A DNA stretch of 52,893 nt, from positions 1 to 52,893 of the forward strand of contig ONIM01000007.1 of assembly GCA_900317885.1 (NCBI GenBank), written 5' to 3'. The notes beneath the pieces were generated by a model. The model made no database searches, was not told where the DNA came from, and was given only the letters and a program-made list of their open reading frames with translations. This document shows positions 38,224 to 40,730 of this stretch, piece by piece. Both the position numbers and the translations under genes were made by a program. The first letter of the stretch is position 1. Every line of letters begins with the position of its first letter. Origin of the DNA: an uncultured Bacteroidales bacterium. Lineage in GTDB: Bacteria; Bacteroidota; Bacteroidia; Bacteroidales; Paludibacteraceae.

Positions 38224-38679
38224 TTATTGGATCATCATGACCAGGACGGGAAGAGGAAGCAGCCCATTAATGGAATAGAGGATGTCGCCGGAATAGGTGG
38301 ATTTACAACGGTATAAATAACCGTTTTCAACGGTATAAAGGATGTCTCCGGAGTAAGTAGATTTACCGCGGTAGATATACGTGCCGTCAAACGTAAGGAC
38401 AATATCGCCGGAGTACGTGGATTTGCCGTTATAGAGATACTTGCCATCCCAGGTGTAAAGGATGTCTCCGGAGTAGTTGGAGCGGCCTTTATAAATGTAT
38501 TTGCCATCCCAGGTATAGAGGATGTCGCCGGAGTAAGTGGAGCGGCCTTTGAAGATACTCTGGCCGTCAAAAGTGAAGAGGATGTCGCCGCTGTACGACG
38601 ATTTTCCGCGGAATAACTGTGTCTGTGCCATGGTTGCCAAACTTATGAGGGTGAATATAAAAACAAGTATGCGTTTCAT
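38224..38679 (-). CDS. Secreted protein of six 20-residue YSGDI repeats, unknown
   Basis: A 151-residue protein with a signal peptide (MKRILVFIFTLISLATMAQ, cleavage near 19-21). Six exact 20-residue repeats span residues 22-141, each fitting [LI][FY].GK/RS.YSGDILYT.DG.Y. It ends in a hydrophobic ten-residue tail (PLPVLVMMIQ). Repeat 6 has Cys instead of Gly. Alternating aromatic and small residues suggest a beta-propeller, beta-flower or solenoid built from identical strands. That is an inference from periodicity. The true start is the ATG at 38679; an ATG at 38730 lies in the promoter. I do not recognise the family. The 3' end faces bcp, 18 bp away. Confidence 0.82.
   Translation of the reverse strand: MKRILVFIFTLISLATMAQTQLFRGKSSYSGDILFTFDGQSIFKGRSTYSGDILYTWDGKYIYKGRSNYSGDILYTWDGKYLYNGKSTYSGDIVLTFDGTYIYRGKSTYSGDILYTVENGYLYRCKSTYSGDILYSINGLLPLPVLVMMIQ
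38257..38616 (-). repeat. 60-bp coding tandem repeat, six copies
   Basis: Six in-register 60-bp units encode the YSGDI repeats. GGATGTCTCCGGAGTA-like text recurs every 60 bp, including at wobble positions. Nucleotide similarity is high enough for copy number to change by slippage or recombination. Confidence 0.92.
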
Positions 38680-38699
38680 GTGAATTTGTTTTTCGGGTG

Positions 38700-38731
38700 C
38701 AAAGGTACAATTTTTTTCCGAAATGTGCAAA
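38700..38731 (-). promoter_or_regulatory. Promoter of the YSGDI-repeat gene
   Basis: TTTG (38731-38728), CACATTT, and TACCTTTG (38707-38700) followed by CACCCG, 24 bp start to start. The start site falls near 38693, about 14 nt before the ATG. Confidence 0.87.
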
Positions 38732-38801: not shown

Positions 38802-39407
38802 ATGAAGCAACAGACAAAGGATATATTATACAAAGATATATTATACAAAATAGACAGACGGATACGACCGATTCTCAATATTATGTCCGTGATCTGCCTT
38901 TTGTTGTTGTGCTCGGCGGCTTTTGATATTCCTATTAAGTCTATTCTTACAAAAATACTATGCTTTTCTGCCGGTATATGGCTTGTGCTGGTTGTATGTC
39001 GCTTGTGCTTGTCGCCTTTCGTTAAAAGCGATGAGGAAGAGGAGTTTGAGCAAAAGGTTGATTATATTTTACAGCAAAGACAAGCGGGACAAACCGCCGG
39101 TTCAAATTATAATCCGCTTCGTGAGCTTAGTCCGGAACAGGAGGAAAAGATCAAAGAGCTCCTACGAAACTTGCCGGAAAACCCGATGAAACCTGGACAT
39201 ATTAACCTTGCGCTTGTTGCGCAATACTTAACAGCTCTTCAACAATTGGGAAAAGCCGACTTGAAAGACAAGCACCATTTGCGGCTTTGGGTGGAAGAAG
39301 TTACCGGTAAAAAAGTGCCTAATTCCAGCCAATTCAACGAAGCCATACCAAGTCAAACAAGAACAAAAGTCCTCTCCGCACGCAAAGAATTAGAGGACAT
39401 TCTCTAA
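38802..39407 (+). CDS. Two-helix membrane protein with a cytoplasmic helical domain, unknown
   Basis: A 201-residue protein. Residues 8-17 are a five-residue duplication (DILYK twice) encoded by an exact 15-bp DNA duplication. Two membrane helices follow near 26-42 and 48-70, then an acidic linker (SDEEEEFEQ). A helical C-terminal domain has LSPEQEEKIKELLRNLPENP, LALVAQYLTALQQLGKADL and HHLRLWVEEVTGKKVPNSSQFNEA. The last block resembles small conserved domains in mobile Bacteroidales genes, but I cannot name it. The start at 38802 fits the promoter at 38746. Confidence 0.72.
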   Translation: MKQQTKDILYKDILYKIDRRIRPILNIMSVICLLLLCSAAFDIPIKSILTKILCFSAGIWLVLVVCRLCLSPFVKSDEEEEFEQKVDYILQQRQAGQTAGSNYNPLRELSPEQEEKIKELLRNLPENPMKPGHINLALVAQYLTALQQLGKADLKDKHHLRLWVEEVTGKKVPNSSQFNEAIPSQTRTKVLSARKELEDIL

Positions 39408-39438
39408 ATAATTCTGCAACGGAATTTGTTTTCGATTT

Positions 39439-39468
39439 CTTCGATAATTGCATCGAAGTTTTGTTTTT
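39439..39468 (+). terminator. Terminator after the two-helix membrane protein gene
   Basis: CTTCGAT, loop AATTGC, ATCGAAG (7-bp stem, 39439-39458), followed by TTTTGTTTTT. Its T-run overlaps the -33 box of the next promoter. Confidence 0.78.
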
Positions 39469-39491
39469 ATTCGCAAGATGCAGTACTTTTG
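39460..39491 (+). promoter_or_regulatory. First of two tandem promoters
   Basis: TTTG at 39460 and TACTTTTG at 39484-39491, 24 bp start to start. It has no CATATGT extension. It lies 51 bp upstream of a second promoter in the same direction. Confidence 0.72.
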
Positions 39492-39510
39492 CCGAAAAAT
39501 TTCAAAAATG

Positions 39511-39542
39511 TTTGCGCAAATGAAAAATTATTTGTATCTTTG
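39511..39542 (+). promoter_or_regulatory. Second tandem promoter, in front of the folded region
   Basis: TTTG at 39511 (TTTGCGCAAAT) and TATCTTTG at 39535-39542, followed by CAGCCG. The predicted start is near 39549. Confidence 0.87.
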
Positions 39543-39548
39543 CAGCCG

Positions 39549-39760
39549 TTATGAAATAATGGGCACAAGCGTGTGCTCACTAATAGCGTTGTAAGCTAAA
39601 CTTGAGTTTTGGAACTTCGACAACTTCAAAACTTTTAACGATTCAAGCAAAAGCCTACGCGCTCGCGCCATCGGCGTGAGCTTTTGCGTAGAATTTGAAT
39701 CGTTAAGGTAGTCGAAGACCTCAAAACTCAAAGGATACGAACAAAAGTTCACGTTTTTTA
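39549..39760 (+). ncRNA. Candidate structured RNA (or long structured leader)
   Basis: The region has no gene and begins at a strong promoter. A small hairpin, GCACA/TGTGC, is near 39563-39576. A nested long hairpin follows: TTGAGTTTTG (39602) pairs with CAAAACTCAA (39722), CTTCGAC (39615) with GTCGAAG (39711), TTAACGATTCAA (39635) with TTGAATCGTTAA (39695), and GCAAAAGC (39647) with GCTTTTGC (39680). The GC-rich tip can alternatively pair GCTCGCGCC with GGCGTGAGC. It ends at GAAC-AAAA-GTTC, ACG and TTTTTT (39754-39759), which could terminate it. The layout of a long rod with an asymmetric central bubble recalls 6S RNA. It may instead be the 5' leader of the gene at 39789 or a MITE-like element. 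Confidence 0.6.
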
Positions 39761-39788
39761 TTATGTATCATCTTAAAAATTAAATCAT

Positions 39789-40730
39789 ATGAAACACAAT
39801 TTTTACAAAGTTATTGGATGTTTGGTCTTCATTTTAATGACCGCTCCTATTTTCGCTCAAGACATTATTGTCACAACTGATGCTAAAAAGATTGAAGCAC
39901 AAATTTTGGAGGTTTCTAAATCTGAAATTAAGTATAAAGAATATGACAATTTAGATGGTCCGACTTTTATTATCAGCACAGATGAGATTAGTTCTATCAT
40001 TTACAAGAATGGGAAGGTAGTTTTGTATAATCAACCTAATGATATAAAATCAACAATTGAGTCAACAGAATCAAAATCACAAGGACAAGAAAATATCGCT
40101 ACCATTCTTCTTCTGTCTGGCAATACTAAAAAGGGGAAATTGGTGGAGATGAATAGTCAATATGTTTCATTTTTAGAAAATGGAGTAAAAATAACTATTC
40201 CTGCCTCTGAGATAAACTCTGTTACTTTGGGAAACGGGCAAACAAGGACATATACTAATGTTTCAACCATGCAAGAGAAAAATATTCAAAGCAAATCCAC
40301 TGTAAACTCCAAAAACTCGGAAGAAAACAAAAACGGACGCATATTTCGCGACAATGGGCAATATTTTTACAATGATACCTATATATCATCAAAGGAAGTA
40401 GAGCGTATTCTTCAGCGCGAAAATGCTACCGCTTATAATCAATGGAAAAAAGCAGAAGGAATGCTTATAGGTGGTTCCATATGTACAGGTATAGCCGGAG
40501 GATTAGCAATAGGCGGACTATTCCCTCTAATTAGTAAAAACTACATTGCGACTATTGGAATGGAGTGTGCGGCTATTGTGCCACTAAGTATCGGTCTTGG
40601 ACTAACGCTTGGAGCATCAACTCATTATAATAAAGCCATCGATATTTATAATTCAAAATATGACCATACTGCTATTCAACTTAAATGGCAGATTACACCA
40701 AATGGAGTTGGATTAGCACTCGCCTTTTAA
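39789..40730 (+). CDS. Exported protein with two beta modules and a hydrophobic C-terminus, unknown
   Basis: A 313-residue protein with a signal peptide (cleavage after FAQ, residue 24). A module at about 25-82 (DIIVTTDAKKIEAQILEVSK, IKYKEYDNLDGPTFIISTDE, ISSIIYKNGKVV) is followed by a second related module at about 101-155 (NTKKGKLVEMN, VTLGNGQTRTY). A polar linker and a region with YISSKEVERILQRENATAYNQW come next. Two glycine-rich hydrophobic stretches lie near 225-250 and 258-285, then a final strand (IQLKWQITPNGVGLALAF). The first module is common in Bacteroidota exported proteins, with no fixed function. The final aromatic strand would suit an outer-membrane location. The gene is clearly AT-richer than the core genes. 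Confidence 0.75.
   Translation: MKHNFYKVIGCLVFILMTAPIFAQDIIVTTDAKKIEAQILEVSKSEIKYKEYDNLDGPTFIISTDEISSIIYKNGKVVLYNQPNDIKSTIESTESKSQGQENIATILLLSGNTKKGKLVEMNSQYVSFLENGVKITIPASEINSVTLGNGQTRTYTNVSTMQEKNIQSKSTVNSKNSEENKNGRIFRDNGQYFYNDTYISSKEVERILQRENATAYNQWKKAEGMLIGGSICTGIAGGLAIGGLFPLISKNYIATIGMECAAIVPLSIGLGLTLGASTHYNKAIDIYNSKYDHTAIQLKWQITPNGVGLALAF

Follow-up and report, generated by a model that had tools for sequence, protein, structure and literature searches.

A structured RNA element with class-wide covariation lies just ahead of a gene for a putative exported protein in the window, by which we mean the whole 52,893-nt stretch analysed (contig ONIM01000007.1 of assembly GCA_900317885.1, from an uncultured Bacteroidales bacterium of the Paludibacteraceae; source genome 2.1 Mb in 89 contigs). 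The core of the element occupies positions 39585–39756 of the + strand (180.7 bits with our covariance model R1) and, as judged from model matches, is a member of a family across many gut and environmental Bacteroidia. With moderate confidence, we read it as a cis-acting, riboswitch-like 5' leader of the gene behind it, for which attenuation would be the most likely form of control. The family, its pairings, its strand and placement and the motif statistics come from sequence comparison, and from these we infer transcription and cis action, attenuation, which way the switch works, and its signal.

On the + strand, a promoter-like motif is followed by a small 5' hairpin, the core element, a T6 tract and the ATG at 39789. 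The promoter-like motif (TTTG-N20-TATCTTTG, 39511–39542) is of a kind enriched upstream of the copies, and we take its upstream TTTG to be the second part of a Bacteroidetes-type promoter motif. A preliminary description of this DNA had placed a strong promoter here; the promoter-like motif is present, but a sigma-70 scan of 39300–39900 gave no + strand site. The accessible part of PMC9723704 gives the box TAnnTTTG as the sigma-A consensus. The 5' hairpin (GGGCACA-AGCG-TGTGCTC, 39561–39578) differs in sequence among copies. At the other end, the small terminator-like hairpin (ACGAAC-AAAA-GTTCACGT, 39737–39754) and the T6 tract that forms the 3' end of the element (39754–39759) are present as first described, and the ATG follows 29 nt further on. 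This 3' hairpin occurs in copies of the genus and is absent from the distant copies inspected, which counts against the leader reading. The downstream gene (39789–40730, +) encodes a 313-aa protein with a signal peptide, as called heuristically, and no Pfam family. The earlier statement that no reading frame uses the region stands for the + strand, where no ORF of ≥60 aa covers it, but a 67-aa ORF on the minus strand, a mechanical ORF call, covers the element. Upstream of the element, 38224–38730 on the other strand encodes a Beta-flower protein (PF21786).

The predicted fold of 39549–39760 has an energy of –76.2 kcal/mol against a mean of –46.41 for shuffled sequences (z = –7.30), and none of 200 shuffles was as good. 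All four nested complementary blocks reported for this DNA were recovered on the + strand, 130 nt end to end: 10 bp (TTGAGTTTTG, 39602–39611, with 39722–39731), 7 bp (CTTCGAC, 39615–39621, with GTCGAAG, 39711–39717), 12 bp (TTAACGATTCAA, 39635–39646, with TTGAATCGTTAA, 39695–39706) and 8 bp (GCAAAAGC, 39647–39654, with GCTTTTGC, 39680–39687). Nearest-neighbour folding, a method that cannot depict kissing loops, draws them as a plain rod. In the arrangement that we propose, X (39602–39612) and Z (39720–39731) are the 5' and 3' strands of an outer helix, and the inner helix joins 39635–39647 to 39694–39706. Hairpin H1 (39605–39633) has a stem of 39605–39613 with 39625–39633 and a loop containing M5 (CUUCGAC, 39615–39621); hairpin H2 (39706–39721) pairs AGGU (39706–39709) with ACCU (39718–39721) and carries in its loop M3 (GUCGAAG, 39711–39717), the partner of M5. 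A basal stem can form between AGCGT (39585–39589) and 39751–39755. The tip (39647–39691) includes the GCAAAAGC/GCTTTTGC stem, a GC-rich apical hairpin of 9 bp (39661–39681) and an alternative CTACGC/GCGTAG pairing; the two alternative tip pairings noticed at the outset are both present, and both kinds find support across relatives. A further alternative, which the preliminary description did not mention, concerns the outer 5' strand: it can pair either as 39605–39613 with 39625–39633 (Y) or as 39602–39612 with 39720–39731 (Z).

Compensatory changes in the stems, proposed earlier as a check, proved abundant. In 29 copies aligned over their full length, 16 of 46 consensus pairs are changed on both sides. 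Class-wide (50 distinct sequences), 95.7% of the cells are paired versus 72.3% after shuffling, and both-sided changes occur at 37 of the 46 pairs (519 cells), in an alignment that leans towards the structure because it was fitted to that of model R1; sliding the partner columns of this alignment by one to three positions left pairing at only 33–40%. We also compared the fit of each strand to the partner in its own copy with its fit to the partners in other copies. The permutation, H1/H2 and pairing analyses used 97 of 101 aligned rows, the weak hits L119, L062 and L038 and one of two in L106 being left out. Across the 97 copies, the own partner beat all 2000 permutations for X:Z, X:Y, M5:M3 and I5:I3 and likewise for T5:T3 at the tip, and the own-partner fit of these helices was also seen among 11 copies less than 72% identical. 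With the conserved UGAAA/UUUCA core removed, X:Y was still equalled or surpassed by just 12 of 2000 permutations (7 sequences). The control pairings Y:Z, I5:Z, X:I3 and Y:I3 gave no own-partner fit in the same 97 copies. The basal stem, which is conserved, gave no own-partner fit in the permutation tests either, and this counts against the leader reading.

UGAAA and UUUCA enclose M5, as GGU and ACC enclose M3. H1 of at least 4 bp is possible in 105 of 110 copies (11% when shuffled), and H2 of at least 3 bp in 106 of 110 (35% when shuffled), the segments of 13 copies having been taken by eye. In the class-wide alignment, which for H1 and H2 was also fitted to the R1 structure and leans towards it, 95.5% of H1 pairs and 94.4% of H2 pairs are standard, and sliding the whole 15-pair H1/H2 set reduced pairing to ≤52%. 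Both-sided changes affect 7 of 7 pairs of the kissing helix M5:M3. A few copies show co-changes in H2 (GGU/ACC to GGC/GCC or GGG/CCC), and the H2 covariation is modest since both-sided changes amount to four cells at one pair. The pairings fit a four-way junction of outer helix, H1, inner helix and H2, in which the two loops would kiss over six or seven base pairs. Within the genus, lengthening of H1 at the expense of the outer helix is a natural candidate for a switch. A long stable fold ahead of a coding region might also act as a 5' hairpin that passively stabilises or insulates mRNAs, with no switching at all; hairpins conserved together with loops that pair, and a strand for which two partners compete, go beyond the needs of stability, however, and we see next to no likelihood in that account.

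The strand of the RNA is indicated by the wobble pairs. Where Watson-Crick is the commonest form of a pair, G·U was counted 202 times versus 43 for A·C on the gene's strand, over consensus pairs chosen by a program that allows G·U. This excess points to an RNA made from the gene's strand, since neither a double-stranded DNA palindrome nor an RNA from the other strand would show it.

The placement of the element is tied to the next gene. In a set of 162 non-redundant copies, from which matches cut by locus ends, weak opposite-strand matches, duplicate loci and repeats had been left out, the next gene lies on the same strand in 147, on the opposite strand in 6 and without a call in 9, so that 147 of 153 called copies (96%) are co-oriented with it. 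The median distance to the gene is 75 nt, and it is ≤150 nt in 129 of the 147. Next genes of exported type (exported or lipoprotein) number 116 of 147 versus 199 of 678 neighbours (Fisher p = 8e-29), with signal peptides called by a home-made heuristic and genes by simple ORF calls. In the window's own genome, four of five copies inspected by eye clearly precede genes for exported proteins. The proposal of a switching leader for an exported-protein gene therefore holds up, in that a same-strand and mostly exported-type gene stands close behind and the alternative pairings are conserved.

What is constant is the leader rather than one gene family, because 140 next proteins fall into 64 clusters, even if some leaders keep the same downstream gene family in several species. 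The largest Pfam class, BspA-type leucine-rich repeats, accounts for 33 of the 132 next proteins (of 140) that were scanned, those above 900 aa by their last 900 residues only. Cargo of the type IX secretion system (T9SS) was rejected as a common theme: its sorting domain was found in just 2 of 132 next proteins, many of them cut by locus ends. The downstream genes share no pathway theme, and for this reason no ligand is obvious.

For the other orders, 59 of 60 regions were used (L314 was too short), with proteins above 700 aa cut to 700. A same-strand ORF begins within 150 nt behind 50 of the 59 copies, that strand alone having been searched, and the next gene is of exported type in 30 of 59. 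Nine of 59 next genes belong to restriction-modification systems (methyltransferases or fused restriction enzymes by Pfam) and begin 12–33 nt after the element; PADLOC assigned eight of these nine to types I, II/III and IIG. Two observations made by eye outside the order may be recorded here: L325, L338 and L340, from two families, carry similar small proteins (73–95 aa, FTIxLKNGxIIHF-like) right after the element, and in L271, L278 and L279 the copies lie 233–301 nt before SusC-type TonB-dependent receptor-like proteins.

A variable sequence on a conserved fold, co-orientation and a cargo of accessory genes, among them exported and restriction-modification genes, would also suit an attC-like recombination site, a structured single strand of DNA through which surface and defence genes are shuffled; so would the loci L121 and L191, which share the upstream region and the leader and differ in the gene behind. 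We nevertheless find such a site highly improbable: G·U pairs stand far above A·C, the copies among the matches listed are mostly kilobases apart (closest ~3 kb) instead of forming cassette arrays, and there is no integrase among the Pfam rows of the next genes (best 25 of 112 and of 41 families).

Several divergent copies are usual in one genome. The window's genome holds at least five, 58–81% identical to each other, and six matches to a second covariance model built from 51 diverse matches; the highest number, 13 matches in one genome, was met in the family sample. A BLAST search with the region matched 97 of 150 genomes, some at the promoter region only, with the core often in multiple copies per genome. 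In a pattern search, the named relatives were for the most part MAGs from rumen and gut that carry the label Paludibacteraceae or Bacteroidales; a few pattern matches in other taxa had no model hit, nor did L155, the sole viral contig from the exact-pattern search. With model R1, genomes carrying the element numbered 163 of 178 in the genus, 119 of 200 in the family and, among sampled genomes, 57 of 295 in the order and 12 of 395 in the phylum; the second model found it in 85 of 395 sampled Bacteroidia genomes and in 52 of 197 genera. These counts are lower bounds, as few candidates were scored per genome and the filters were strict, and the samples include the window's own genome. A good copy (89 bits) in L141 (7062–7242) comes from a MAG labelled Candidatus Kapaibacterium and may reflect either a wider range or a binning error. 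A phage or plasmid origin was considered and set aside: blastn of the window copy against 50,697 phage and 72,556 plasmid records gave no match.

The description of the region as a candidate new structured RNA is upheld by the class-wide covariation and by the lack of an Rfam match over the gathering score. No family of Rfam 15 reached that score in the window; a lax search of 39400–39900 gave six sub-threshold matches only, near the element (E 0.43–4.1), and lax searches of 17 and of 13 divergent loci gave one match each, outside the element. The open literature covered (titles, abstracts and sequence strings of 15–17 letters, subscription journals lying outside this scope) held no description of the element, and the motifs named in the accessible parts of PMC8040213, PMC2864571, PMC9723704 and PMC5771137 differ from it.

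The likeness to 6S RNA that had been suggested was not sustained. Like 6S and 6S-Flavo, the element can be drawn as a long rod with internal loops, ~200 nt in size; unlike them, it is multi-copy and stands in front of genes, several divergent copies per genome doing so, and a junction with kissing hairpins describes it better than a symmetric rod. No 6S, 6S-Flavo or Bacteroidales-1 match was obtained in the window at the gathering score or up to E 5 in 39400–39900, and 6S and 6S-Flavo (RF00013, RF01685) were unmatched in the window and its own genome; a separate 6S-Flavo search matched no control genome either and so proves little. More generally, a free small RNA that acts in trans (~210 nt, with a promoter and a terminator of its own, whether 6S-like or not) would account for the promoter motif, small hairpin and U-tract of the window, and for a U-tract that is general across copies. 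We consider it improbable, as no 6S or 6S-Flavo match was seen, orientation and distance are tied to the next gene and the copies within a genome are no more than 58–81% identical.

Loop-loop contacts are part of the leader architecture of cobalamin, purine and lysine riboswitches, and c-di-GMP riboswitches occur in several copies per genome before unrelated genes. The element resembles such leaders, as their architecture is generally understood, in its multi-helix junction, paired loops, 5' UTR position, U-tract and multiple copies; it differs from the cobalamin, purine and lysine classes in that the sequence of its paired loops is variable, the element disperses, no pathway theme joins its genes and no Rfam match exceeds the gathering score. 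The UpxY-dependent capsule leaders of Bacteroides, which work by antitermination, are likewise leaders of surface-feature genes. UpxY itself is unlikely to be the dedicated regulator in the genus, because the UpxY model exceeded its cut-off in 9 of 178 genomes and the element was found in 163 of 178. Flavo-1 (RF01705) is also a Bacteroidetes motif, and the accessible part of PMC9723704 places some of its hits in 5' regions; it has 76 positions, and its hits are reported there in sense or antisense alike, whereas the present element is in sense in 147 of 153 copies. Flavo-1 was rejected as an identity for the element, with none over the cut-off in 10 element-carrying genomes or in control genomes. 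HMP2_4205, HMP2_1065 and HMP2_1032, as far as described in the accessible part of PMC8040213, are similarly palindromic structured-RNA candidates of Bacteroidetes with predicted terminators; they measure 80–132 bp and lie near TPR, ruvA or tonB genes, and are set apart from the element by description only.

Putative signals of transcription flank the copies. The motif TANNTTTG occurs within 200 nt upstream of the element in 69 of 153 copies, against 10.9 expected by base shuffling and 97 of 564 control windows, and in 28 copies TTTG stands exactly 20 nt before it. A run of T5 or longer ends the element in 134 of 161 copies (4 to 16 of 155–160 in shifted windows). Two observations sit less easily with the leader reading. 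The same motif occurs in 19 of 123 spacers between leader and ATG (5.6 expected by shuffling), which leaves room for a promoter behind the leader in a minority of genes; for the window gene, no TANNTTTG was found in the 29 nt from T6 to ATG. In addition, there is an enrichment of TATGT immediately behind the U-tract (in 55 of 155 copies, control 1) and of ACATA before the element (122 of 155), so that conservation extends slightly past the U-tract, for which a plain terminator would not account. ACATA and TATGT were tried as a covarying outer stem and rejected, own pairs being no better than permuted ones (z = –0.8). A second shared block, close to AACGGAGTGTGCCGAAAATCCGACAAAGAGTAGGC, was noticed between the element and the ATG in L010, L015, L018, L021, L025 and L028.

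A cis-acting leader would accommodate the covarying structure on the gene's strand and the fixed position and orientation before genes, and the junction, kissing loops and U-tract would suit a riboswitch, the basal stem without own-partner fit less so. Transcription from the Bacteroidetes-type promoter would make the element the front part of the next gene's mRNA. The leader would then fold into the outer helix, H1, the inner helix with its GC-rich tip, and H2, with the loops of H1 and H2 kissing. Its outer 5' strand X would have two competing partners, Y, giving a longer H1, and Z, closing the junction, and the basal stem would end the RNA with the U-tract directly behind. With junction and basal stem closed, the polymerase would presumably stop at the U-tract; a ligand or protein stabilising the other pairing would allow read-through into the gene.

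The two-gene locus of the window gene was compared in 12 copies: three have the leader (window, L243 and L257) and nine do not. In L246–L250, the orthologous gene starts 84–87 nt past the stop codon of the gene upstream and ~20 nt behind a promoter motif that is also kept in the window (TTTG-N20-TACTTTTG, 39460–39491, +), where its position matches the sole such motif of these leader-less orthologues. That the gene exists there without a leader speaks against the leader reading. The window and L243 have ~300 nt extra between this older promoter and the gene, holding the second promoter motif and the leader. A palindrome, TTCGAT..ATCGAA (39439–39458, within 39430–39491), stands directly before the older promoter and is possibly an operator; it is recognisable in the leader-less loci L246 and L248–L250 and degenerate in L247. 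In L257, L241, L242 and L244, an extra ORF of ~150 aa on either strand separates the two genes, a small insertion hot spot.

The additional ~300 nt, relative to L246–L250, would also be expected if the element were a small mobile one of ~180–215 bp, MITE-like or of another kind whose RNA or single strand has to fold for it to move, that lands before genes and controls them only secondarily. Twenty-one pairs of leaders are ≥95% identical, and 8 of them, in different genomes, precede non-homologous genes; in 5 of these 8 the identity ends at –3 to –24 upstream and +2 to +21 downstream (L122 and L179, for example, share 199 bp at 99.5%). When non-homologous pairs of ≥92% were compared, identity ended at the element edges in 12 of 21. 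ACATA and TATGT resemble short inverted ends, and in wider flanks (30–120 nt before, 10–110 nt after) shared words are slightly longer than permuted ones (14 of 1000 permutations as high). Near-identical copies before unrelated genes in other species thus make a mobile origin conceivable. Against it, the two flank windows nearest the ends showed no excess of direct repeats (669 and 333 of 1000 permutations as high), and the 40 pairs of copies that share an assembly (20 assemblies) included none that was near-identical, the best reaching 93%. The other 9 of the 21 compared pairs of ≥92% share a longer stretch, which speaks for recombination at leaders; L121 and L191 are alike (89.5%) over the leader and ~1.1 kb upstream of it and the genes behind differ, a gene swap right behind the leader. 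The leader also keeps to one gene family across several species. MITEs are not known to prefer a strand relative to genes, and 96% co-orientation together with compensatory change is atypical of them. Empty sites for mobile copies were not found among loci that had been chosen for holding the element. The preliminary description had named many identical copies with target duplications as the mark of a MITE: near-identical copies in unrelated settings do exist, but between species only, without an enrichment of direct repeats near the ends and with abundant compensatory changes. We regard the mobile element as unlikely, though deserving more weight than a free small RNA; transposition and recombination between existing leaders are both possible from the patterns of identity.

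Returning to the cis-acting leader, the make-up of the gene set, with surface proteins and lipoproteins and, in other orders, restriction-modification enzymes too, hints at a shared signal linked with the cell envelope or with invaders. A tentative extension, which we hold to be rather unlikely as a whole, is that the element is a portable kissing-loop four-way-junction module moving between genes, which would put surface proteins and DNA-defence enzymes under one signal, for instance a messenger made upon phage attack or envelope stress. Comparative support for this RNA family, from a major phylum of the gut, is strong, and nothing in the standard RNA library matches it over the gathering score. 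It links cell-surface genes and, in other orders, restriction-modification genes, two groups whose products come into contact with phages, hosts and neighbours. Should the leader be a sensor, its signal would expose a regulatory system in a phylum for which few have been described; should the element be mobile, it would present the uncommon case of a regulatory RNA spreading from gene to gene.
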